Made by a program: the position numbers and the translations under genes. 64,000 bases of DNA, from positions 7,103,001 through 7,167,000 of the forward strand of contig NZ_CP015136.1 of NCBI RefSeq assembly GCF_001618865.1, given 5' to 3'. Shown here in pieces: positions 34,700-48,584 of the stretch. The stretch is from Luteitalea pratensis. Lineage in GTDB: Bacteria; Acidobacteriota; Vicinamibacteria; Vicinamibacterales; Vicinamibacteraceae. The notes under the pieces are model-generated. The model saw only the letters and a program-made list of their open reading frames with translations, had not been told where the DNA came from and made no database searches. Numbering within the stretch: position 1 is the stretch's first letter; each line of letters starts with the position of its first letter.

Positions 34700-36088
34700 A
34701 TGGCACCCGCCCTGAAGACCATCCTCATCGTCGACGACGACGAGGGGATGCGAGACACGCTGATGGCGATTCTGAAGCGCGACTATCGCGTGTTGTCGGT
34801 CTCGTCTGCCGAGGACGGCCTGTCACGCCTGCGTCAGACACGGGTCGACCTGATGTTGCTCGACGTCCGGTTGCCCGGCATCGGCGGCCTCGAACTGCTG
34901 CGGCAGGTGCGTGAGCAGCGCGACGAGGTCGAGGTCATCATGATCTCGGCGATCACCGATGTCGAGACGGCCGTCCAGGCGATGAAACTTGGCGCCTACC
35001 ACTACATCACCAAGGAGTTCGATTACGACGCGCTGCGGGCGCTGGTGCGCAACGCGAGCGAACGGCAGGACCTGCGCAACCGCGTTGAATCGCTGACCGC
35101 GCAGGTGCAGGCCCAGGACGAGGAGTTCGTCACCGGGACGAGCGCAACGATGAAAGCCGTGGTGAGCCTCGTGCAGAAGGTGGCACGCCTCGACAGCACG
35201 GTGCTCATCACCGGGGAGAGCGGCACCGGCAAGGAGATGCTCGCGCGACGAATCCACGCCGAGTCGGATCGACGGAAAGGGCCGTTCATCGCGGTGAACC
35301 TGGCCGCGGTGCCAAGCGAACTGGTCGAGAGCACGCTTTTCGGGCACGAGCGTGGATCGTTCACTGGGGCCGTCCGCCAGCAGCTCGGGAAGTTCGAGCT
35401 CGCCAACAGCGGCACCTTGTTCCTGGACGAAATCGGTGACCTTCGCCTGGAGTTGCAGGCGAAACTCCTGCGAGCAATCCAGGAGGACGAAATCGAGCGG
35501 GTCGGTGGCCGGCACCCGATCCAGGTGGATTTCCGGCTGGTCGTGGCGACCAACGCCGATCTCTCGGAGGCAGTGCGGCAAGGGCGATTCCGGGAGGATC
35601 TGTTCTACAGGATCAACGTCATCCCGGCGCGGTTGCCTGCGCTCCGCGATCGCAAGGAGGACCTCGGGCAGCTGCTCGACGTGTTCATCAGGCGCTACGC
35701 GCTGCGCTTCCGGAAGGTCGTGCGCGGCATCGAGCCGTCGGCGTTCGCCGTGCTGGAACGCTATGCCTGGCCGGGCAACATCCGGGAACTGCAGAACCTC
35801 GCCGAGCGGATGGTCGCCGTCTGCGACAAGGCCGAGATCACCGAGGCCGACCTGCCGCTCGAGGTGCAACTGGCCGCGCTCGAGGCCCTGACCGCCGACC
35901 AGGGCGAGAGTGTCCTGGACCAGGCCGTCGCCGCCTTCGAGCGCAGTTACTTGCTGAAAGCCCTGGAGAAGGGCGAATGGAACATCGCCGCCACCGCGCG
36001 GCAACTACGCCTTCCGCTGAGCACCCTGAAGCACCGGATGGGGCGGTTGCGCCTCACCGACGTGACCCGGCGGCTGCGGGACGCCTGA
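34700..36088 (+). CDS. Sigma-54-dependent NtrC-family response regulator
   Basis: The 462-residue regulator has a receiver domain (acidic DDD at 12-14, phospho-acceptor Asp55), an AAA+ sigma-54 activation domain (Walker A GESGTGKE, sigma-54 loop GSFTGA in place of the usual GAFTGA, Walker B LFLDEIGD, arginine-finger region REDLFYR) and a Fis-type helix-turn-helix at the C-terminus (NIAATARQLRLPLSTLKHRM). Phosphorylation should trigger remodelling of sigma-54 polymerase. It sits 222 bp upstream of a radical SAM gene that has a sigma-54-like promoter. The NtrB-like kinase at 39518 is the obvious partner. Confidence 0.93.
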   Translation: MAPALKTILIVDDDEGMRDTLMAILKRDYRVLSVSSAEDGLSRLRQTRVDLMLLDVRLPGIGGLELLRQVREQRDEVEVIMISAITDVETAVQAMKLGAYHYITKEFDYDALRALVRNASERQDLRNRVESLTAQVQAQDEEFVTGTSATMKAVVSLVQKVARLDSTVLITGESGTGKEMLARRIHAESDRRKGPFIAVNLAAVPSELVESTLFGHERGSFTGAVRQQLGKFELANSGTLFLDEIGDLRLELQAKLLRAIQEDEIERVGGRHPIQVDFRLVVATNADLSEAVRQGRFREDLFYRINVIPARLPALRDRKEDLGQLLDVFIRRYALRFRKVVRGIEPSAFAVLERYAWPGNIRELQNLAERMVAVCDKAEITEADLPLEVQLAALEALTADQGESVLDQAVAAFERSYLLKALEKGEWNIAATARQLRLPLSTLKHRMGRLRLTDVTRRLRDA

Positions 36089-36279: not shown

Positions 36280-36295
36280 TGGCACCGTTCTGGCA
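36280..36295 (+). promoter_or_regulatory. Sigma-54 (-24/-12) promoter candidate
   Basis: TGGCACCGTTCTGGCA matches the consensus TGGCACG-N4-TTGCW at all but two positions and keeps the required 10 bp between GG (36281-36282) and GC (36293-36294). Transcription would start near 36305, about 5 nt before the radical SAM ATG, giving an almost leaderless mRNA. The AT-richer DNA at about 36220-36255, with the palindrome TAACGTTA, is suitably placed for an upstream activator site. It lies right after an NtrC-type gene. Confidence 0.6.
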
Positions 36296-36310: not shown

Positions 36311-37759
36311 ATGCGCGCGTCGCGGTTCACGGTATCCGTCCCGCTCCCGGACACAGGCGAACACTTCCTGTTCAATTCCCTGACCGACGCCCAGATCGTC
36401 GTCTCAGACGACGTCGTGCAGTTGATCGGCCGTGTGGACCGGGACGAGGCTGCCCATCTGGACCCCGCAGCCCGGGAGGCCGTCAGCGAACTGACCGCGC
36501 TCGGGTTCATCGTCGACAGCCGGGATGCCGAGGATCGCGCGCTCGAGACGTTCTTCACCGACCTCCGCGACGACGCGAGCCACCTGCGCGTCACGCTACT
36601 CACCACGCTGCAGTGCAACTTCGCCTGTGATTACTGCATCCAGGGGGACCACGAGGCGCATGCCACGCCAGCCGCCAGGATGTCTCTCGAACAGGCCGCC
36701 CAGGTCGGCGACTGGATGGAACAGCGGCTCGACGCGTTGGGGCCGCCACGGTTCACCCTGACGTTCTTCGGCGGCGAGCCCCTCCTGAACCTGCCCGTCG
36801 TGTATGCGCTGGCCGAGCGCATGTGGGACGCCTGCCGGAGCCGCGGCGTGGCGATGAACATCAGCATCATCACCAACGGCTTGCTTCTCACCGAGGCGGT
36901 TGTGGATCGGTTGCTGCCGTACGGTCTCACGGGCGTGAAGATCACCCTGGACGGTGACCGCGCGACGCACGATCGGCTGCGCCCGTTGCGCGGTGGCCAG
37001 GGCACCTTCGACCGCATCCTGGCCAACATGCGCGTCGTCGCCCCCAAGGTGCGCCTGAGCATCGGCGGCAACTTCGACGTGGAGAGTGCGGCCAGCTATC
37101 CGGAACTGCTCGCACTGCTGCGGAACGAGCCCTTCGCCGACCGCATCGCCAAGATTGCATTCAAGCCCATCATCCGCGGGCCGAATACCGGTAGGGCTGG
37201 CGCGGGCACGGTCGTGCGGAGCACGGCCGACGGCGGACGGGTGATCCCGTTGATGGCCGTCGACTCGCGTCAGGTCGCCCTCGGTGGCACCTGCATGACC
37301 GCGGCCGGCAGTGGCGCGGGCAGCGGAACACCGTGCGACACCTGCGGGCTGGCCGACGAGCGGATGTCCTGGCTCCGGGCCGAAACCAGGGCCAGCGGCT
37401 TCGCGACGCTCGACGGGCTACACATGGGCCCGTGCGAACTGCACCGCCGTCACTCGTACACGGTGGGACCGGAAGGGTCGCTGTACCCGTGCCCCGGCTT
37501 CACCGGCGAGCCGGGCCAGCGGATTGGCCACGTCGTCCCGGCGCTCGACCCGGCGCATCACGCGGTGCGTGATCGGTTCGAGGCGCATGCGCCGTGGCGG
37601 GCGTGTGGGGACTGCGCGCTGGTGCCCGTGTGTGGTGGCGGCTGCTCGGTGGCCGCGCACAACGAGCAGGGCGACCTCAACGCGCCGAGTTGCCATCGAC
37701 CGGGGATGCTGGTGGCCCTGGGCGAGATCGCGTCAGCTGCGGCAAGCGTTCCGGCCTGA
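36311..37759 (+). CDS. Radical SAM/SPASM peptide maturase with PqqD-like N-terminus
   Basis: The 482-residue enzyme has three parts. Residues about 1-85 resemble a PqqD-like peptide-recognition domain (NSLTDAQIVVSDDVVQLI, ELTALGFIV). A radical SAM core holds the SAM cluster cysteines C102-x3-C106-x2-C109 and a GGEPLLN motif. The C-terminal SPASM region has GPCELH, YPCPGF and C-x2-C-x5-C-x3-C in GDCALVPVCGGGCSVAAHN, plus a final CHRP. This architecture is typical of enzymes that install thioether or carbon crosslinks in ribosomal peptides. A 32-codon peptide gene follows 42 bp downstream and is the likely substrate. Sulfatase maturases share the fold, but no sulfatase is nearby. Confidence 0.88.
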   Translation: MRASRFTVSVPLPDTGEHFLFNSLTDAQIVVSDDVVQLIGRVDRDEAAHLDPAAREAVSELTALGFIVDSRDAEDRALETFFTDLRDDASHLRVTLLTTLQCNFACDYCIQGDHEAHATPAARMSLEQAAQVGDWMEQRLDALGPPRFTLTFFGGEPLLNLPVVYALAERMWDACRSRGVAMNISIITNGLLLTEAVVDRLLPYGLTGVKITLDGDRATHDRLRPLRGGQGTFDRILANMRVVAPKVRLSIGGNFDVESAASYPELLALLRNEPFADRIAKIAFKPIIRGPNTGRAGAGTVVRSTADGGRVIPLMAVDSRQVALGGTCMTAAGSGAGSGTPCDTCGLADERMSWLRAETRASGFATLDGLHMGPCELHRRHSYTVGPEGSLYPCPGFTGEPGQRIGHVVPALDPAHHAVRDRFEAHAPWRACGDCALVPVCGGGCSVAAHNEQGDLNAPSCHRPGMLVALGEIASAAASVPA

Positions 37760-37801
37760 CCGCCGGTGCCGAGTCGGCATGTATTCATCCTGGAGACGAC
37801 C

Positions 37802-37900
37802 ATGACCATTCGCATCGTCAAACGCGGCGTCAGCAAGGACAAGCCGCCGTTCTGCCCGTTCCTCATCGACTACCCGTGCGATCAGCCGGAGCCCAAGTAA
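37802..37900 (+). CDS. 32-residue two-cysteine peptide, candidate RiPP precursor
   Basis: ATG 37802 is preceded by a good ribosome site (GGAGA 7 nt upstream) and ends with TAA at 37898-37900. The first 14 residues are basic (four Lys and two Arg), as in a leader. The C-terminal 18 are PPFCPFLIDYPCDQPEPK, rich in Pro and aromatic residues, with Cys18 and Cys26. It sits between a radical SAM/SPASM maturase and a peptide-binding lipoprotein, all on one strand. No family is recognised. I infer it is modified by the upstream enzyme; leader cleavage and export genes are not seen nearby. Confidence 0.6.
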   Translation: MTIRIVKRGVSKDKPPFCPFLIDYPCDQPEPK

Positions 37901-38009: not shown

Positions 38010-39521
38010 GTGACCGCGCTCGCTGCCCGCTCTCCCGGACGTCGCGACGCACGGCGTCGTGCCGTGCTGCTTGTGTTCGCGTGCCTGCCCGGTATCGTCA
38101 TCGCGACGGCCGGATGTGGACGCGCGGACGCGCCGGCGGCTGCCGTGCCCGCCCGCATCACCGTGGCCCTGCCCAGCGCAGATGTGCCCATCGCGCCGCT
38201 GCTCTTCCTTCTCACCCAGACCCGGCTGGTCAGCGTCGATCAGACCGGGATCGAACAGCCGGCATTGATCGAGCGCTGGACCCGATCGGACGACCAGCGG
38301 ACATGGACGCTGTTCGTTCGTGATGGCGTGCGGCTCCATGACGGACGTATCGTGACCGCCGCCGATGTCGTGACCCGGGTTCGAGAGGCGGTCGACAGGC
38401 CCAGCACTCCCGGGTTGTGGCCAGTGACCTCGGTCGAGGAGGCGGGCCCACGCGAGGTGCGAGTGCACCTCCGCGAGCCGACGAGTCTGTTGCTCGAGTC
38501 CCTCTCGGTGACCCAAGCCGTCGATGCTGGCGCCTACCAGGCGAAGGACGACGCGCCCGCTGAACCGGAGCTGGTGGCTGTCCCTCAGTCGGGACATGGC
38601 CCTCCGAGCATCGGCACCATCCAGGTTCGGCGCTACGAGACGCCCCGCGCTGCCGTCGCCGCCTTGCTGCGTGAGGACGTCGACGTCCTCTACGAAGTGC
38701 CGAGCGAGGCGCGCGGTCTGCTGGCAGTGGAGGACGGCGTGCAGATCTTCCCGAACGTCAAGCCCTATGTCATCACCCTTGGATTCAATCACCGTCATCC
38801 GATTCTCCGGCGACGGGACGTGCGACTGGCGATGAACATCGCCGTGGATCGACAGGCGCTGGTGGCGCAGGTGGCCGGCGGCGTCGGCATTCCCGCGGCC
38901 GACATGCTCTGGCACCAGCATTGGACCCATCCACATGTGGACGATGCGCAGGCGTTCCCGGTGGACCGCCAGCGCGCCGGCCAGTTGCTCGATGCGAGCG
39001 GACTGCAGCAGCGACGGACGCCCACTGGGGCGATCGAGCCCCGGTTCCGAGTCACGTGCCTCGTGGTGGACGACCCGATGATGCAGCGCATCGCCAGGCG
39101 GCTCCAGAAGGCCTACGCCGACATCGGCATCTCAATCGATCTGGAACCGATCGCACTCGAGGCACTCGGCACGCGGCTGGCCAGCGGCCACTTCGACGCC
39201 TTTGTCTCACCCGTCGTGAGTGGCTACGGCATGAGCATGCCGTACGCGTCGTTCGGAAACCACGGCCACCCGCGGATGATCGACCATGGCTACACGGCAG
39301 CCGCGCCCGCGGCCGAACTGGTCCGTGCCGCCGCCACGCGAGAGGCCTTCGTCGAGGCCGTTCATGCCCTGCACCGGACTCTCATCGAGGACCCGCCGGC
39401 GGTCTCCCTGTTCTGGAGCGAGACGAGCCGCGCCGTCGGCCGCCGCGTGACAGTCCCTGATTCGTCGGGAGACGTGCTGGGCTCATTGGCGCGCTGGACG
39501 GTGAGGAGCAAGGGGCAGTGA
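38010..39521 (+). CDS. Family 5 (peptide-type) solute-binding lipoprotein
   Basis: The 503-residue protein has a signal peptide with a lipobox ending TAGC (Cys36) and the SBP_bac_5 fold: LIERWTRSDDQRTWTLFVRDGVRLHDG near residues 87-112, an RRDVRLAMNIAVDRQ segment and a long C-terminal domain. Relatives bind di- to oligopeptides, usually for DppBCDF importers. No permease or ATPase genes are adjacent. Instead the TGA stop overlaps the histidine kinase start (GTGA), so the binding protein is coupled to a sensor. It may present a peptide, possibly the product of the small upstream gene, to the kinase. The start is GTG 38010, with no close ribosome site. Confidence 0.82.
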   Translation: MTALAARSPGRRDARRRAVLLVFACLPGIVIATAGCGRADAPAAAVPARITVALPSADVPIAPLLFLLTQTRLVSVDQTGIEQPALIERWTRSDDQRTWTLFVRDGVRLHDGRIVTAADVVTRVREAVDRPSTPGLWPVTSVEEAGPREVRVHLREPTSLLLESLSVTQAVDAGAYQAKDDAPAEPELVAVPQSGHGPPSIGTIQVRRYETPRAAVAALLREDVDVLYEVPSEARGLLAVEDGVQIFPNVKPYVITLGFNHRHPILRRRDVRLAMNIAVDRQALVAQVAGGVGIPAADMLWHQHWTHPHVDDAQAFPVDRQRAGQLLDASGLQQRRTPTGAIEPRFRVTCLVVDDPMMQRIARRLQKAYADIGISIDLEPIALEALGTRLASGHFDAFVSPVVSGYGMSMPYASFGNHGHPRMIDHGYTAAAPAAELVRAAATREAFVEAVHALHRTLIEDPPAVSLFWSETSRAVGRRVTVPDSSGDVLGSLARWTVRSKGQ

Positions 39522-41236
39522 TCCCGATCACGCGACGCATGGCCCTGCTCGTGACGACCGCCGCGCTCGTTCCACTGCTGATCTTCGGTCTCGTCGCCGG
39601 CTGGACGCTGCGCACGACGACGCAGAATTCCGTGCGGGAGAACCACGCGGCCATCGCCGCCCGCGCTGCCGAGACGATCGCCCTGTACCTGAAATCCACC
39701 GAAAAGCTCGTGAAATCGGCGGTGTCGGACCTCGAAGGCACGGGGCTCACGCACGCGCAGCAGCAGCGGGTCCTGCTCAACCAGGTGACCAACACGCCCG
39801 AGATCAAGGTCCTGACGCTCTACGATGCCCGGGGCGTGCCCCTGGCCACGAGTGACCTCACGCCCGCGCCACCGGCACCGCTCGCGCATCTCACCGAGGC
39901 CGCATTGACGGTCCTGCCGGTGGACCTCGATGGGGATCAATGGCCGCGCACCCGGCTGACACTCCGGCTCGACGAGCCGCTCGCGCCCTACCTCGTGGCC
40001 GAGTTGCAGCTCGAGGAGCTGTGGCAGGTCGTCGACAACGTGAAGGTCGGCATGAGCGGCCGCGCGTTCCTGGTGGACGATACGGGGCGCATCATCGCCG
40101 ATGGCCGCCCCGACGGAAAGAAGCGCATAGCACGCCGTGAACGCATCGGCGCGCACCCGCTGGCCAGGGCGACCACCGTCGCCGGTGCGAGTTACACGCG
40201 CGCCTACGATGGAGTCGAGGTGCTTGCCGTCGCGACGGCCCCGCTCGAACGCTACGGCTGGCGCGTCATCGTCGAGCAGCCCACCGCGGACGCGTTCGCG
40301 CCCGCGACACGGCTGGAACAGCAGTTGCTACGATTCGTGACCCTCGCGCTGCTCGCGAACATCGCCATCGGCATCGCGTTCGGGCGATCGCTGCTCCGGC
40401 CCATCTCGGACCTGCTCGGAGGCATCCGGGCGATCGGCGAGGGACGGTTGGATCAACGGGTGCATATCACGCGCGACGATGAGTTCCGGCTGCTTGGTGA
40501 CGCATTCAACGCCACCGCCGACAAGCTCGGGGAACTGCAGCAGGCCGCGATCCGGCAGGAGCGTCAGGCGATGTTCGGCCGCATCGCCGCCGGCCTGGTG
40601 CACGACCTCTCGCATCCCATCCAGAACATCAACAACAACTGCAAGCTGGTGCTGCAGATGCACGACGACGCGGAGTACCGCGCGACGTTTGCCAAGCTCG
40701 TCAAGCGCGAATTCTCGACGATTCAGCGGACATTCGAAGACCTGCGCAACCTCGCGCGCCCAATCCCGCTCGAGAAATTCCCGGTGGACGCCGGCAAACT
40801 CATGGTTGACGTCGTCGAGCGGATGCAGGCACAGGCATCGGTCGCGGGGGTCACCGTGGCCGCGAGCGAGGTCCCGGAGCGGACGCTCTATCTCGAGGGA
40901 GACCTGTTCGCACTCGGGCGGGTGCTGCGCAACCTGGTGCTCAACGCGCTGCAGGCCACACCGCCGGGGGGGCGCGTGTGGATCGAGGTGGACGGGAACG
41001 ATGATCGCGTGCAAGTGCACGTGTGCGACACGGGCTGCGGGATCCCGGCCGACCGGATTCAGGCGGTGTTCGAGGACTTCGTGACGACGAAACGGCGCGG
41101 GCTGGGACTCGGCCTCGCCATTTCGAGAAAAATCGTGGAACAGCTGGGCGGGTCGATCAACGTGACCAGCACGGTCGGTGAAGGCAGCCGTTTCACGCTG
41201 GCGTTCCCGCGGCTCAGCAGGATTGCCGGCATGTGA
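39518..41236 (+). CDS. Membrane sensor histidine kinase (NtrB-like) with extracytoplasmic sensor domain
   Basis: The 572-residue kinase has an N-terminal membrane helix (about residues 9-30), an extracytoplasmic Cache-like domain of about 240 residues (LYDARGVPLATSD, VDDTGRIIADG), a second helix (about 273-293), HAMP, a HisKA-like helix with phospho-acceptor His362 in LVHDLSHPIQNINN, and an ATPase domain (NLVLNALQA, DTGCGIP, GLGLGLAIS). The kinase domain is of the NtrB type that pairs with sigma-54 regulators. GTG 39518 overlaps the lipoprotein stop by 4 bp. A strong terminator follows. Confidence 0.9.
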   Translation: MIPITRRMALLVTTAALVPLLIFGLVAGWTLRTTTQNSVRENHAAIAARAAETIALYLKSTEKLVKSAVSDLEGTGLTHAQQQRVLLNQVTNTPEIKVLTLYDARGVPLATSDLTPAPPAPLAHLTEAALTVLPVDLDGDQWPRTRLTLRLDEPLAPYLVAELQLEELWQVVDNVKVGMSGRAFLVDDTGRIIADGRPDGKKRIARRERIGAHPLARATTVAGASYTRAYDGVEVLAVATAPLERYGWRVIVEQPTADAFAPATRLEQQLLRFVTLALLANIAIGIAFGRSLLRPISDLLGGIRAIGEGRLDQRVHITRDDEFRLLGDAFNATADKLGELQQAAIRQERQAMFGRIAAGLVHDLSHPIQNINNNCKLVLQMHDDAEYRATFAKLVKREFSTIQRTFEDLRNLARPIPLEKFPVDAGKLMVDVVERMQAQASVAGVTVAASEVPERTLYLEGDLFALGRVLRNLVLNALQATPPGGRVWIEVDGNDDRVQVHVCDTGCGIPADRIQAVFEDFVTTKRRGLGLGLAISRKIVEQLGGSINVTSTVGEGSRFTLAFPRLSRIAGM

Positions 41237-42571: not shown

Positions 42572-43107
42572 TTCAGTAGCTGAAAGCGCTGAGCGTCAGG
42601 ACGGTACCGGTCCTCAACACCCGCGACCCGGGTGCGAGTCTGTCCGGTTGCCAGTTTCTCGCTTCACTCCCGACTCCCGACTCCCCGACCCATGACACAA
42701 CCATGACGCAGGGCCGGTATGGTGCCGGCTCTTTCGATGGGGCTGCGGTCAGTGCTTCCGGACACTCCTGCGTCGCGCCTCCTCGCTGACGGCCGGCGAT
42801 ACGACCTTCGAGGTCTGGCGCCTGGAGAACTTCGCCTGCGAAGTAGGCGCTACGCACTCCCGGCATCAAGCACCAGCATCACGCGTCAGGCGTCAGGCGT
42901 CACCTGGTACCTGACGCACATCGCACGAGCTGCGCGCGCAACTGCGCGTGACATCAACGAGCGAAGTGGCGTCTTGATGTCGCGGCATTCCTCTTGCTCT
43001 GCTCTCCGGCACCTTGGATCGCCTGCGCTGATTTCCCGCAGGATCTCGCGCGTTCCGCTCGATCTGATCGCAGAAGTCGCCAACGGCTGGCGCAGGGGAG
43101 ATGGCAG
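42572..43107. other. Non-coding region upstream of the helicase-methyltransferase pair
   Basis: No gene is seen. Heptamer-type repeats occur at about 42666-42686 (ACTCCCG units) and 42863-42903 (GCGTCAG units). A GACCTTCGAGGTC palindrome lies near 42802. The last 100 bp must hold the promoter of the helicase gene, but no clear -10/-35 pair is visible. Confidence 0.6.
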
Positions 43108-45360
43108 ATGCTGCACACCGAAGTCAGGCCAAGCGACGCAGCCGCGCCGGCCGATGGCACCTCCGCGCGAGTCTGGTGTCGGGCTCGCACGTGGCGCGTG
43201 CTCGACAAGCGCAGTGCCGGCGGCACGACCCTGTGGCGTCTCGTCAGAAAAGCGGAAGTTCCCCGCCTGATCGCATCGCCACCGGACGAAGTATCGGCAA
43301 TGCGCATGGGCAGGCGCGCGGTGTCGCGGCAAACGTGGATCCGTGATGCCGTCGCGCACGTGCGCTCGCATGCGCCGGTCTGGTGGCCGGCCACGGCGAC
43401 GACGCTGCCGGTTGCCGCACTGGCGTGGCAGCTCGTGCCGGCGATGATGGTCCTGTCCGGGCACCATCGACGCGTGCTGCTCGCCGACGCCGTCGGCATG
43501 GGCAAGACGATTCAAGCCGGTGTGTTGCTGCACGAGATCCACGCGCGCGAGCCCGACGCCACCACTCTGGTGATCACGCCAGCGACCCTCGTGGCGCAAT
43601 GGGCCACCGAGTTGCGTACCCGGGCATGCCTCACGCCAGCGGTGCTCGATGCCGCGGCGCTGCGCCGTGAAGCCGAATACCCCCGCGCCATGGTTGATGC
43701 AGCCCGGGCCGGCACCTGCTGGCTGATGTCCATCGACCTGCTTCGTCAACCCGACGTCGTCGCCCTGCTCGTACGTACGCGATGGACACTCCTGGTCGTC
43801 GACGAGGCGCACGCCGCCGCGCCGGGAACCGCCAGGCTCGAGGCCGTGTCGCGCGTGGCCGGCGCGAGCGTGCGTATGCTGCTGCTGACTGCCACGCCCT
43901 CCGCCGGCGGCGCGGCCGACGGCTTGCGCCGGCTGGGCGCACGGGCCGGAGAGGCGCCGATGCCAGTGGTGAGGCGAGACGCGTCGCTCTTGTCGCGACC
44001 ACACCGCCGTTCGCTCGCGCTGCGCGCTGGCCTCGACGCCGATCATGCGGCGCTCTGCGCGCGCCTGGATCGGTTCGTCGAGCGGGCACGCGTCGAGTCC
44101 GGCGCTCGCGGGCTCCTGCCCGCCCTGGTGCTCCGACGCCGGGCCTCATCCTGCCCGGCGGCCCTGCGGCGCTCGCTCGAACGCCGGCTCGAGGTGCTTG
44201 GGGAGTCGGCGACGACTGGCACTCCGTCTGTGCTTCCCTCGCTGTTCGAACCCGACCCATTCACGAGCCAGGACGAACGAGACGATGAGGTCATGCGCGT
44301 CGTGGCGTGGTCAGACGCGACTGCCGAGCGAACGGAACTGGAGAGGTTGCTCGAGCTCGCCCGGCAGGTGCCGCCCGCTGGCCGGAAACTCGGATGCGTA
44401 CGGCGCCTGGTGCGGCGATGTCGCGAGCCAGTGGTGGTCTTCACGGCGTTCCTCGACACGCTGCGGGCGCTCCGCGCCCTGCTGCCGGCCGAAGGCGTGG
44501 TGATGGTGCACGGCGAACAGCCGGACGCCCTGCGCGCTCATGCGATCCGGTCGTTCACCGTGGGTGATGCTGCGGTGCTGCTGGCCACCGACACGGCCGC
44601 CGAGGGCCTTAACCTCCACGCGCGGTGCCGTCTCGTGGTCCATGCCGAGGTCCCCTCGTCGAGCCGCATCTTCGAGCAGCGCACGGGCCGGCTGGATCGC
44701 TATGGCCAGTCCCGCCGCGTCCACGCGGTCATCATCTCCAGCCTGACACGTGAGGACCGCGAGGCCATGGAGCGCCTGCAGGCGCGGACGCAGCGCGACA
44801 AGCAGTGGATCGCAGGCGCAGGGGCGACCACTTGCAGACGCACCGCCGTGGCGGCGCGCAGGTTGGCGCTCGACGTCGCGCAGGAGCGGCCAGCCGCCGG
44901 CGCCGCGCCTGAACGCGACCGCGACGTGCCCGCGATTCGCGCGTGCGCGCTACCTCCACGTCGTTGGCGACGACTCGTGTCGCGGCTCGAGCTGCCGATC
45001 GGGACGACAGCGGTGTGGACGGCCACCTGGCGCATCGCCGGCGGGCCAGAGCTGTCCGCCTCACGGGTGCCAGTGCTCGTAGCAGGTGACTCCTCCGGAC
45101 CTCCGGACCTGACGTCGGCGGCGCGGCAGGGAGCAATGCGAGGCAGGGTGACACGGGCCGTATGGCTGGTACGTCGCCTCACCCGCTGGGAGGCCGACGC
45201 CGCACGCGCGATCGAAATGGACGAGTCGATGAACGCGATGCCGGACCTGTTTGCCGATGCGCCCCATGGCCATGAAATTCGACCCACCAGGCGCCAGCCG
45301 GACCTGTGGGCCACGCTGGAGGGCGAGACGATGATCGGACCCGCTGCCGGTGTGCGATGA
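43108..45360 (+). CDS. SNF2-family helicase of a candidate defence pair
   Basis: The 750-residue superfamily 2 ATPase shows Walker A DAVGMGKTIQAG (Lys133), DEAH box VVDEAHA (Asp232), motif III LLTATPS and motif VI QRTGRLDRYGQ. The helicase C domain contains TDTAAEGLNLH. This pattern is the RapA/SNF2 type found in restriction and DISARM-like systems as the translocase. ATG 43108 follows AGGGGAG at 8 nt. The stop overlaps the methyltransferase ATG by 4 bp (ATGA), so the two products are made together. The C-terminal about 200 residues have no recognised domain. Confidence 0.85.
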   Translation: MLHTEVRPSDAAAPADGTSARVWCRARTWRVLDKRSAGGTTLWRLVRKAEVPRLIASPPDEVSAMRMGRRAVSRQTWIRDAVAHVRSHAPVWWPATATTLPVAALAWQLVPAMMVLSGHHRRVLLADAVGMGKTIQAGVLLHEIHAREPDATTLVITPATLVAQWATELRTRACLTPAVLDAAALRREAEYPRAMVDAARAGTCWLMSIDLLRQPDVVALLVRTRWTLLVVDEAHAAAPGTARLEAVSRVAGASVRMLLLTATPSAGGAADGLRRLGARAGEAPMPVVRRDASLLSRPHRRSLALRAGLDADHAALCARLDRFVERARVESGARGLLPALVLRRRASSCPAALRRSLERRLEVLGESATTGTPSVLPSLFEPDPFTSQDERDDEVMRVVAWSDATAERTELERLLELARQVPPAGRKLGCVRRLVRRCREPVVVFTAFLDTLRALRALLPAEGVVMVHGEQPDALRAHAIRSFTVGDAAVLLATDTAAEGLNLHARCRLVVHAEVPSSSRIFEQRTGRLDRYGQSRRVHAVIISSLTREDREAMERLQARTQRDKQWIAGAGATTCRRTAVAARRLALDVAQERPAAGAAPERDRDVPAIRACALPPRRWRRLVSRLELPIGTTAVWTATWRIAGGPELSASRVPVLVAGDSSGPPDLTSAARQGAMRGRVTRAVWLVRRLTRWEADAARAIEMDESMNAMPDLFADAPHGHEIRPTRRQPDLWATLEGETMIGPAAGVR

Positions 45361-48300
45361 GTGCGGCATGGGTGACGGGTGGCCGCGTGTGGTCGCGAGT
45401 AGTCGAGCGCCACCTCGCAACGGCACTGCTCCATGGTGCGTCGGAGGAAGCGGCCGCTCGGGCGATGCGACGATGCATCTGCACGTGGCGAGGCGCGAGC
45501 GAGACCCTCGGCCCCGCGAGCGGCGCGGCTGCCGTGTGGGAGCACCTCGTGCGACCGTGCGCGGAGGCGCTCGGATGGTCGCCCCGACGCGACGCCGCCG
45601 TGCCAGTGGGTGGCATCCACATGCGCGTGGGCGAGGCCGCGCTCGGCCCGGTGCGTCAGCTGCTCGTGGCCATGCCCTGGGGCATGGCGCACGAGGGACT
45701 ACAGCGCGCAGCGACGCGACTCGGGGCTGCGCGCGATACGCGCTGGGTCGCTGCCTGCAATGGGCAGTCCTGGCGGTGGTACGACGCCACGCGGCCCTAT
45801 GCGCGCGAGCACATGGCGATCGACCTGGCACACGCGTCGATCGACGCCCGCGTCTGGCAGGTGCTCTGGCTGCTGGGCCAGCTGGTCCGGAGTACGCGCA
45901 GTGCCCGGACACCGGACATGCCGTGGCTCGAGCGACTCGTGACCTCGAGCGCCAGCGAAGGTGCGGGGGCGGCGGCGGCGCTGCGCGACGGGGTGTCCTC
46001 GGCGCTCGCCGGGCTGGCTCGACGAGCGGACGGCGATCACGACGCGCACGTGATGCTCGTCTTCCAGTGGCTCTTCCTGCTGTTTGCCGAATCCCGCTCG
46101 CTGTTGCCCATGTGGCATCCGGCCTATCGCCGGAGCTACGCCGTGTCGTCGCTCGCGCGCGAGAGCGCGCCGACTCGGGTCAGTGCCGTCGGCGTGCACG
46201 AGGGCCTCGCGGCCATCGGCCGGCTGGGCCGGGACGGCGCGGAACTCGGGGGACTGACGGTGCGTGCGCTGGGCGGCCCATTGTTCTCGGGCACCCTCAA
46301 GGCCCGGCGCTCGGGGCGCATCGCCGACGCGGAACTCGGAACGATGCTGGCACAGCTCACGCACGGGAGCGGCCCGCGAAGCGGAACCCCGATCGACTTC
46401 GGCGAACTCGGCGTCGAGCACCTCGGCTCGCTGTACGAGCGCTTGATGTCGCCGCCAGTCGCGGACGGATCGCCGGCGCTGTTGCGCAAGCGCACAGGTG
46501 CGTTCTACACGCCGCGCGTCCTTGCCGACATGCTGGTGGAGCGGACGCTCGATCCTCTCGTCCGCGGCGCCTCGTCACGCGAGATCCTCGGCCTGCGCAT
46601 CCTCGATCCAGCGATGGGAAGCGGCGCGCTGCTCGCGAGTGCCTTGCGCTACCTGGTCGCCGCCGTGGAGGCGGCCTGGATTCGCGAGGGACTCGGCGGC
46701 CCGCTCGACGTACCGAGGCACGAGCGCGAGTCGCTGCCACGCTGCATAGCCGAGCAATGCCTCTACGGCGTCGACGTCAACGCCAGGGCGGTGGACGTGG
46801 CACGGCTCTCGATCTGGTTGCTCTCGATGGCTCCCGATCGCCCGCTCACGTGGCTGGATGCACATCTGCGCGTCGGCAACAGCCTGGTGGGTACCTCGCC
46901 GTCCACGATTCTGTCGCGTCTGCCCGGACGCGACCGATGGCCACGGCGCCGCGCGGATGCCCAGTTGACGCTGTTCGACCTGGAGCAGTGGCATCACGAG
47001 GCCGCCGAGATCGGTCCGATGATGGAAGCGCTCGTGGCGCGACCGACCGAGTCCGCCGCTGCGGCCGGCGACAAGTCGCGCGCCCTTGCGAGCCTGCGAT
47101 CGCGGAAGGTGCTCGCCGCGTGGCGGGCCCGCGCCGATGCCTGGTGTGGCGCGGCAATGGAGGTCGATCCGCCCACGAGCGGACTGTGGCGGGCCGTGGA
47201 CGAGGCTCTCAGGGTGGGTGGCGCGAGCCCGGGCGCCGGCGCTGCACAGGTCTACCAATTCACCGATTGCTGGCTGGCATCGGCCGATGCGCAGCACTGT
47301 CTGCACTGGAGTCTCGAGTTCCCGGAGATGTTCGAGAACGGCCGCCATGGCTTCGACGCGGTGATCGCGAACCCTCCATGGGAGATGCTGCGTGGCGATC
47401 TCGGCAGCGGAGCCGACCGCACCGCGGCGAGAAACGACCTCGCACCACTGCTGCGATTCGTTCGCAGGAGCGGGCTGTACCGCGAAGTCGGCGGCCACGT
47501 GAACAGCTACCAGTTGTTTCTCGAGCGAATGCTCCAACTCGTGAGACCAGCCGGACGGCTCGGCTGTCTGCTGCCTGGCGGGATGCTGGTCGACCACGGC
47601 GCGGCGGCACTCCGTCGGCTCGTCCTCGACCGTGTCTCGGTCGATCAGCTCTCGATCTTCGACAACCGGGACGCCATCTTCCCCATCCACCGCTCCGTCC
47701 GCATTGTCGCCATGACGGGTACCAGCGGCGGCCCGACCGAGGCCATGCTCGTGGACGATGGCGTGCTGGCGACGACGGCAGTCCGCACACAGCGGGCAAC
47801 GGAGGCGCCGCGGCTGCTGCCGCGCACGCTCCTGCGCCAGGCGAGCGGCGATCTGGAGGCGGTGCCATGGGTCCGCGACGGCGACCAGGTGCGTCTGCTC
47901 GGGCAGTTGCTGTCGTTTCCGCGGCTCGGTGGCGCGCATTGGCACCTGCGGTTCGGCCGCGAGCTGAACGCCACCGAAGACAGGGCGCTGTTGCGCAGCG
48001 GTCCGATCCCCGATGGCGGCCTCGCGGTCGTCGACGGCAAGCACCTGCAGGCGTTCTCGGTATGCCCGCCGGATACGGCCTCGTGGGTCTCCGTCGTGGA
48101 CGCGGCCCGCGCACTCCCCGACCAGCGGTGGCGGCAGTGGCGACTCGCCTACCGTGACGTGTCGTCGGCGACGAACATGCGCTCGCTGATCGCGGCGTTG
48201 CTGCCACCTGCCTGCGTCAGCACGCACACGCTGTTCTGCCTGCGCACCCGGCTGGGACTACCTACGCAGCTGTACCTGTGCGGCATGTTGAACAGCCTGG

Positions 48301-48584
48301 TGGCGGATTGGTTCGTACGCCGGTATCTGGGCGGCCATGTGACCACGAGCCTGATCGCGAGCCTCCCGGTCCCGAAGGTTGCGGCGACACATCCGCTGCG
48401 GCGGCGCGTCGTGCGGCTAACGGCCAGGCTGATGCGCACCGCTGACGATGAGCGGGCGCAGGGCGAATTGCAGGCGGCCGCCGCCACGCTCTACGCGCTC
48501 GGCCAGGAATCGAGGGCTACCGTGGCCGCGGACTTTCCGCGACTGTCGCCCGTCGTCCGCGAACGGCTGCTGGGTGGGGAGTGA
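45357..48584 (+). CDS. Eco57I/type IIG-like N6-adenine DNA methyltransferase with degenerate nuclease region
   Basis: The 1075-residue protein has an N-terminal region (about 40-130) that aligns in layout with the HSDR_N-type nuclease of type IIG enzymes (ending ACNGQSWRWYD), but the E-x-K position reads VAMPWG. The methyltransferase core has FYTPRVLADMLV, motif I DPAMGSG (from Asp417) and motif IV NPPW (from Asn672), typical of N6-adenine methylation. A C-terminal target-recognition region includes FRLAYRDVSS-like and SLIASLPVPKV segments. Translationally coupled to the SNF2 helicase, it probably forms a phage-defence module; no specificity subunit or third gene is present. Confidence 0.85.
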   Translation: MSAAWVTGGRVWSRVVERHLATALLHGASEEAAARAMRRCICTWRGASETLGPASGAAAVWEHLVRPCAEALGWSPRRDAAVPVGGIHMRVGEAALGPVRQLLVAMPWGMAHEGLQRAATRLGAARDTRWVAACNGQSWRWYDATRPYAREHMAIDLAHASIDARVWQVLWLLGQLVRSTRSARTPDMPWLERLVTSSASEGAGAAAALRDGVSSALAGLARRADGDHDAHVMLVFQWLFLLFAESRSLLPMWHPAYRRSYAVSSLARESAPTRVSAVGVHEGLAAIGRLGRDGAELGGLTVRALGGPLFSGTLKARRSGRIADAELGTMLAQLTHGSGPRSGTPIDFGELGVEHLGSLYERLMSPPVADGSPALLRKRTGAFYTPRVLADMLVERTLDPLVRGASSREILGLRILDPAMGSGALLASALRYLVAAVEAAWIREGLGGPLDVPRHERESLPRCIAEQCLYGVDVNARAVDVARLSIWLLSMAPDRPLTWLDAHLRVGNSLVGTSPSTILSRLPGRDRWPRRRADAQLTLFDLEQWHHEAAEIGPMMEALVARPTESAAAAGDKSRALASLRSRKVLAAWRARADAWCGAAMEVDPPTSGLWRAVDEALRVGGASPGAGAAQVYQFTDCWLASADAQHCLHWSLEFPEMFENGRHGFDAVIANPPWEMLRGDLGSGADRTAARNDLAPLLRFVRRSGLYREVGGHVNSYQLFLERMLQLVRPAGRLGCLLPGGMLVDHGAAALRRLVLDRVSVDQLSIFDNRDAIFPIHRSVRIVAMTGTSGGPTEAMLVDDGVLATTAVRTQRATEAPRLLPRTLLRQASGDLEAVPWVRDGDQVRLLGQLLSFPRLGGAHWHLRFGRELNATEDRALLRSGPIPDGGLAVVDGKHLQAFSVCPPDTASWVSVVDAARALPDQRWRQWRLAYRDVSSATNMRSLIAALLPPACVSTHTLFCLRTRLGLPTQLYLCGMLNSLVADWFVRRYLGGHVTTSLIASLPVPKVAATHPLRRRVVRLTARLMRTADDERAQGELQAAAATLYALGQESRATVAADFPRLSPVVRERLLGGE

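Follow-up and report, generated by a model that had tools for sequence, protein, structure and literature searches.

The DNA analysed here, a stretch of 64 kb of Luteitalea pratensis that we refer to as the window, holds on its plus strand a cassette with the order sigma-54 response regulator, maturase, peptide (or peptides), OppA-like lipoprotein and Cache histidine kinase. The response regulator (RR, 34700..36088) is of the NtrC-type, sigma-54-activating kind and has the Pfam domains Response_reg, Sigma54_activat and HTH_8. It is followed by a sigma-54 promoter-like site, TGGCACCGTTCTGGCA (36280..36295), by the radical SAM/SPASM maturase (36311..37759), by a predicted precursor peptide of 32 amino acids (37802..37900), by a lipoprotein of the Pfam family SBP_bac_5 with its lipobox cysteine at position 36 (SBP1, 38010..39521) and by a histidine kinase (HK, 39518..41236) with dCache, HAMP and HATPase domains according to Pfam, which overlaps the SBP1 stop by 4 nt. 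The earlier note on this DNA had placed the peptide between maturase and lipoprotein but had omitted the sigma-54 RR upstream and the Cache HK downstream, which belong to the unit. One flank of the cassette has lipoate and 2-oxoacid dehydrogenase genes (LplA/B-type, acyltransferase and dihydrolipoyl dehydrogenase type), the opposite flank has HU and QueF, and no exporter, permease or processing protease was recognised among the named neighbours in the window and the part of the recurrent neighbour families that was scanned. At 42994-48584, downstream of the cassette, there may be a DISARM-like defence locus: a SNF2-type helicase and a large methyltransferase ORF match the PADLOC models for DISARM-like DrmD and DrmMI (144 and 236 bits).

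The ORF at 37802-37900 translates to MTIRIVKRGVSKDKPPFCPFLIDYPCDQPEPK and has its cysteines at residues 18 and 26, as described in the earlier note, which had also placed the ORF correctly: the gap to the maturase, whose ORF ends at 37759, is 42 nt (42 bp in the note) and the gap to the lipoprotein, whose ORF begins at 38010, is 109 nt (about 110 bp). The strong ribosome site announced at 7 nt is present as a predicted GGAG (37792..37795), but the spacing to the ATG is 6 nt. No family of NCBIfam or Pfam matched the peptide, in line with the earlier opinion that it fits no RiPP class that can be named. The gene is too small to be picked up by routine annotation. When the peptide alone was used as query, each of the other four genomes of the genus yielded homologues (E 3e-13 to 2e-6) and 50 of 198 genomes matched at E<=1, many of them weakly and unconfirmed; several of the homologues within the order adjoin homologous maturases and binding proteins. 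Purifying selection, the check that had been suggested, is evident from dN/dS values of 0.23-0.75, below 1 in 10/10 pairs from five genomes of the genus.

A profile made from these peptides matched 66 of the 162 genomes of the order at E<=0.01. Four weak or partial matches were set aside (G037, G043, G054 and G080), and the remaining 62 profile-positive genomes all fall within the 66 genomes of the order that have a maturase orthologue; the maturase genomes with no match to the peptide profile are G006, G071, G125 and G151. For the analysis of loci, 70 neighbourhoods were taken, of which 68 contain the maturase (a few genomes contributed two). Six of these 68 stop within 100 bases behind the maturase, have no peptide match and were left out. 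Of the 62 Vicinamibacterales loci with sequence behind the maturase, 60 have an intact peptide ORF there: 57 were found via the profile at E<1e-4 (including L115, which is cut by the contig end), L034 by the peptide-alone search, L082 at E 0.015 and L127 separately. The two exceptions are a peptide with in-frame stops (L122) and a degenerate remnant (L095). A peptide-like stretch with a weak match (E 0.26), TVARGSVKDRPSGCPFQVD, lies near a contig start of genome G103 (L049, ~181-237); no maturase was found on this stretch. The earlier view is right in that a SPASM maturase and a peptide-binding lipoprotein flank a real peptide, which is conserved and precursor-like, and the homology, the position and the purifying selection seen in the sequences show that the ORF is a gene. 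A chance ORF with no function would be compatible with the small size of 32 codons and the absence of a library match, but can hardly be reconciled with a frame and position that are conserved across an order and in a second phylum.

An alignment of 49 copies gives the consensus M-K-I-x-V-V-K-K-G-...-K-P-...-C-P-x-x-I-D. C18 is present in 49/49 copies, which had been chosen with Cys, and C26 is restricted to this organism: the other four species of the genus have Y, Y, V and I at this position. The two conserved cysteines proposed earlier are thus reduced to C18 alone, and chemistry that needs both (a disulfide or two thioethers) is ruled out, as C26 is not conserved. Asp or Glu at Cys+5 (Cys-X4-Asp/Glu) occurs in 60 of the 64 copies found with the profile in 57 loci, seven of which have two copies at E<1e-4; in the remaining four, which read C-P-W-M-I-x, this position is A, S, C or T. 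Proline at Cys+1 (48/64) and Trp or Phe at Cys+2 (49/64) are less strict; the family trait is usually C-P-[WF]-x-[IV]-[DE], with the Cys and the Asp/Glu at +5 as the most constant positions of the core. The Cys is usual, not indispensable, because some loci carry copies in which it is replaced: [ST]-P-W-L-V-D is present in L081 and L082 and also, as a second precursor, in L044, L045 and L046, and H-P-W-L-V-D in L094. The second precursor-like ORFs of L044, L045, L046 and L094, which have no Cys, end in [TH]-P-W-L-V-D-V-P-[LV]-[DE]-H-[ML]-[KR].

The maturase has the Pfam domain Radical_SAM and scores 45.7 bits on the SPASM model TIGR04085 (cut-off 27). All 27 aligned maturases (27/27) share C102, C106 and C109, the CX3CX2C motif of radical SAM enzymes, as well as C375, C394, C432, C435, C441, C445 and C461, which we take to be the SPASM pattern. 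Orthologues with 48-82% identity occur in the order, and in a sample of Acidobacteriota, maturase matches were found in 18 of 396 genomes, all of the same order. Beyond the SPASM domain, the best NCBIfam match is the geopeptide maturase model TIGR04280, with 230.3 bits against a cut-off of 400; L081 (263.9), L264 (292.5) and L152 (257.0) also score under 400. The PapB model reaches 122.6 bits, under its cut-off of 340. The closest solved structure is 5wgg, presumably the thioether enzyme CteB.

Linkage of the cassette genes is strict. Across the 68 loci, tblastn detected, wherever the contig has room, the RR in 62/62 loci (three partial), SBP1 in 55/55 and the HK in 51/51; the counts rely on tblastn because greedy ORF calling gave antisense artefacts in the GC-rich DNA. 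The lipobox Cys36 of SBP1 is invariant in 30/30 sequences. A predicted model of SBP1 (pLDDT 89) and its profile best match oligopeptide and nickel binders, namely AppA with a nonapeptide, AgaA and NikZ, and SBP1 also matches AapF with a signalling molecule. SBP1 has the largest mean distance of the five proteins (0.64), followed by the peptide (0.58), the HK (0.46), the maturase (0.39) and the RR (0.29). Beyond common ancestry, the divergence of the peptide follows that of SBP1 (partial r 0.14, p 0.02) and of the maturase (0.15, p 0.04) slightly, and values for the HK are 0.13 (p 0.07) and for the RR 0.00 (p 0.49; 38 loci, four tests, p uncorrected). The slight covariation with SBP1 and the maturase would lend weak support to a ligand-receptor change.

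The promoter-like site in the window is the sole match in the 64 kb (0.13 expected) to a pattern that was written to fit that site. Relatives within the genus carry similar sites and there, too, the -12 element is TGGC, which is nonstandard. At the level of the loci we used the pattern GG[ACT]A[CT]-N5-TTGC, which follows the textbook consensus and was fixed after a first look at the loci: 47 of the 62 loci have it in the 250 nt that precede the maturase, and it stands before other genes in 0/46 (SBP1), 0/40 (HK), 0/35 (RR) and 7/349 (remaining genes) cases. Word counts upstream of the maturase yielded, in addition, the palindrome CGGCCAA-N4-TTGGCCG. With up to one mismatch it has 25 sites in the 24.8 kb of DNA upstream of maturases (23/62 loci) and none in the other 770.5 kb, and with spacers of 0-3 and 5-9 it has no site upstream and two elsewhere; with two mismatches it is found in 40/62 loci, with 60 sites versus 10 elsewhere. 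These counts describe rather than test the motif, because it was derived from the same regions. The palindromes that were compared lie about 100-220 nt upstream of the promoter pattern, which is the usual placing for an NtrC-type activator. Upstream of the maturases of the window's genus the palindrome is absent (5 loci, best sites with at least five mismatches). The earlier note mentioned neither the sigma-54 promoter nor this palindromic upstream site of most families.

The 4-nt centre of the palindrome and some symmetric changes point toward an RNA hairpin. However, paired positions differ in 15 of the 36 two-mismatch sites, and of these 10 are complementary and 5 are not; furthermore, the sites stand upstream of the promoter. 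We therefore prefer to read the palindrome as a probable DNA dyad rather than an RNA hairpin. With the promoter pattern in 47 and the two-mismatch palindrome in 40 of the 62 loci (the palindrome in none of the window's genus), the operon may be controlled by its linked regulator, in which case the RR would be the protein that binds.

Of 30 RR-positive genomes with no maturase, 12 RR loci were inspected. Eleven of these are empty sites: the RR is kept, and maturase, SBP1, HK and palindrome are absent. HU stands directly after the RR in 10 of the 11 and about 6 kb away in L394, QueF follows behind HU in nine (L386 ends before that point) and a dihydrolipoyl dehydrogenase is present in 10 of the 11. 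The twelfth locus (L395 of G116, a single MAG) has lost maturase and SBP1; between RR and HK, it has kept the palindrome, the promoter pattern and the peptide ORF, as well as the kinase itself, and its peptide has Ser in place of the Cys. This remnant suggests that the Cys may be important for the maturase, and the peptide for the kinase.

In fourteen genomes, further copies were sought with a looser form of the palindrome (an additional free base, one mismatch) and with a backward control. Counts exceed the control in most of the 14 genomes, but not in G007, G021 and G077. The best genome-wide sites led to a second SBP_bac_5 gene (SBP2) in L304, L306 and L308, with permease domains behind SBP2 in both loci that were scanned; at the sites in L303, L305 and L307, no second oligopeptide-binding gene adjoins. 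Perfect copies at L303 7566 and L305 7313 lie beside genes other than those for oligopeptide-binding proteins. In the window's own genome, the palindrome occurs with one mismatch shortly before SBP2. Among the 69 genomes with SBP2, 48 have a site with up to two mismatches within about 400 nt upstream of the gene, versus 2/345 in a shuffled control (a pass with some minus-strand loci in the wrong orientation). The palindrome stands at SBP2 also in cassette-free genomes, which rules out that it is specific to the cassette. It is found at SBP2 in 44/59 RR-positive and 4/10 RR-negative genomes, a difference that is not significant (p 0.057, with cassette genomes counted as RR-positive; p 0.053 before three genomes were reassigned to RR-positive), and it is close to the gene start, which is not the usual place for an NtrC-type enhancer. 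Binding of the RR to the SBP2 palindrome is plausible.

The same arrangement exists outside the phylum. A Nitrospirae MAG (L152) has a maturase with 32% identity, a 23-residue peptide, an SBP and an HK in the same order, with a sigma-54 site just upstream of the maturase. A search of Nitrospirota with the Nitrospirota maturase matched 51 of 395 genomes: ten at 50-75% identity or as the query itself (own genome included), the others at 26-38%. Nine further Nitrospirota genomes have the orthologue at 50-75% identity, and their nine loci (L260-L268) have the sigma-54 pattern in 8/9 cases and the peptide in all seven loci with sequence behind the maturase. The eight Nitrospirota peptides, L152 included, have 23-25 residues and each ends five residues after the Cys. 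An RR that is 51-53% identical to the window's RR lies 4-7 kb upstream in L263, L264 and L267, with a TonB-dependent receptor between RR and cassette in L263 and L264. In L266, two SBP genes stand in tandem between peptide and kinase.

A second group of Nitrospirota maturases, about 30% identical, includes L272, which passes the TIGR04280 cut-off with 535 bits. Around it are a TonB receptor, a short ORF with CCRIG, an ABC_sub_bind protein, a histidine kinase and a sigma-54 response regulator; L269, L273, L274, L277 and L278 of the same group have kinase-like matches downstream. The geopeptide system shares with the window its maturase model, as best NCBIfam match, and at L272 the same kind of sensing genes. 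It differs in that the L272 peptide precedes the maturase and has the core CCRIG, the binding protein is of another family, a TonB receptor is upstream, and the window enzyme reaches 230 of the required 400 bits. None of the precursor models in the libraries matched the peptide of the window or that of L272, so that the libraries give no yardstick for a geopeptide-type precursor. The two systems have the look of related designs that differ in their binding proteins and peptides.

We tentatively interpret 37802-37900, at somewhat short of an even chance, as the precursor of a radical-SAM-modified peptide that is sensed by its producer. The maturase would bind the basic N-terminal half of the peptide and act on the core C-P-[WF]-x-x-[DE], where it would most likely join the Cys to Asp/Glu(+5) in a thioether, as PapB does in Cys-Xn-Asp. 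The product would leave the cytoplasm and be caught by the OppA-like lipoprotein, which would signal to the Cache HK; the HK would phosphorylate the adjoining NtrC-type RR, and the RR would activate the sigma-54 promoter of the maturase-peptide-lipoprotein-kinase operon and probably also control the oligopeptide importer that bears the same palindrome. The outcome would be positive feedback on the modified peptide. Of this circuit, the sequences show the gene and how it is conserved, the linkage of the cassette, the promoter pattern, the palindrome of the relatives and the empty sites.

Several lines of evidence favour self-sensing: the peptide accompanies the maturase in 60/62 loci and the two co-occur over genomes; RR, SBP1 and HK are linked wherever the contig has room; the sigma-54 pattern (47/62 versus 7/349) and the palindrome (25 sites versus none) are concentrated upstream of the maturase; Nitrospirota share the order maturase-peptide-SBP-HK and the sigma-54 site; Cys-X4-[DE] is present in 60/64 copies and has the PapB precedent; the G116 remnant, with no maturase, has a Ser-for-Cys peptide; and SBP1 is the fastest-changing protein, with weak covariation of the peptide with SBP1 and the maturase. 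Against it stand the lack of a recognised exporter or processing protease among the named neighbours, the absent palindrome and nonstandard -12 element in the window's genus, the loose palindrome that does not exceed its control in all 14 genomes, the position of the SBP2 palindrome near the gene start and its presence in cassette-free genomes (link to the RR p 0.057), the Cys-less peptide copies beside a maturase, and the binding of nutrients and nickel complexes by other SBP_bac_5 proteins. The sensing role could also go with another modification, such as a thioether to an alpha carbon or a carbon-carbon bond at Trp/Phe. The aromatic residue at Cys+2 in 49/64 copies and the P-W-L-V-D that is kept in the Ser/Thr/His-for-Cys copies would fit, but we consider this improbable, as Cys and Asp/Glu(+5) are the most constant core positions and the closest solved enzyme, 5wgg, is presumably CteB, which forms a thioether.

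Rather than its own product, lipoprotein and kinase may sense environmental peptides, as nutrients or cues, with the RR switching on import and RiPP together and the modified peptide being an output (antimicrobial, inhibitor or cofactor). The similarity of SBP1 to general oligopeptide and nickel binders speaks for this, as does the palindrome before SBP2 (with permeases behind in the two scanned loci), with and without the cassette. Yet SBP1, HK and peptide come and go as one block while the RR stays, and G116 (one MAG), which has lost SBP1 and maturase, still has the peptide next to the kinase; we regard this explanation as rather unlikely. Less probable still is a metallophore that is secreted, re-imported with its metal, bound by SBP1 and sensed, comparable to methanobactin and MbnE: a small RiPP bound by an OppA-related periplasmic protein is on record in the excerpted text of PMC7558416, SBP1 resembles nickel-complex binders, and the Nitrospirota cassettes L263 and L264 have TonB-dependent receptors next to them, but no TonB receptor was recognised among the named neighbours of the window's cassette, and the core offers few metal ligands apart from its single Cys, which a thioether would block.

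A wider and doubtful claim is that self-sensing extends to a whole family of peptide pheromones, modified by radical SAM enzymes and made by Gram-negative bacteria of soil and groundwater, in which every peptide is encoded together with a receptor lipoprotein, a kinase and a sigma-54 RR of its own, the RR also switching on the importer. Because the Nitrospirota peptides stop exactly at the position of the Vicinamibacterales Asp/Glu, activity would reside in the short terminal stretch C-x-[WF]-x-x-x, and the tail behind the Asp/Glu of the Vicinamibacterales peptides would have to be cut off.

Methanobactin is a copper carrier made by other enzymes (MbnB/MbnC). It resembles the cassette as a small RiPP with an OppA-related protein that binds it, as SBP1 may do here; unlike the cassette, it comes with no kinase circuit in the excerpts of PMC7558416. 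Among ranthipeptides, PapA/PapB share with the cassette the radical SAM/SPASM enzyme and a Cys and Asp/Glu a few residues apart: according to the part of PMC9413430 at hand, PapB joins Cys to Asp/Glu and accepts Cys-Xn-Asp with n=0-6 in vitro. Natural PapA has six Cys-X3-Asp motifs, in contrast to one Cys-X4-Asp/Glu here, a conserved spacing that departs from the ranthipeptide Cys-X3-Asp/Glu motif and that PapB tolerates in vitro. Streptococcal RaS-RiPPs combine peptide signalling with a radical SAM RiPP, as the window would if its peptide is sensed: the excerpt of PMC13361665 describes Rgg/SHP signalling with Opp uptake and positive feedback, which controls a radical SAM RiPP. In streptococci a separate SHP peptide serves as the signal and the cytoplasmic Rgg as its receptor, whereas the predicted RiPP of the window is linked to a binding lipoprotein, a kinase and a sigma-54 regulator. 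No description of this cassette was recognised in excerpts of the open-licence PMC literature on RiPPs, Acidobacteria, sigma-54, SBP-kinase pairs, quorum sensing and Luteitalea/Vicinamibacter, and no such cluster appears in the extract of PMC8692599; the combination of 'geopeptide' with 'radical SAM' found no open-licence PMC literature.

Vicinamibacterales are abundant in soil and poorly understood. Their cassette has the general features of a radical SAM RiPP, with CX3CX2C and SPASM cysteines in the maturase and a conserved short precursor beside it (60/62), and it is best read as a RiPP system of this type that includes its own circuit for sensing, with modification, export and binding deduced from the genes. 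Should it be no more than a RiPP, the cassette still contributes a further pair of maturase and substrate, with a compact Cys-X4-Asp/Glu core. To judge from the geopeptide locus L272, such circuits may be more widespread. Should the linked lipoprotein and kinase indeed sense the peptide, radical SAM RiPP and sensing circuit would form one unit, and a single synthetic or co-expressed peptide would suffice to test cell-cell signalling directly in an environmental phylum.
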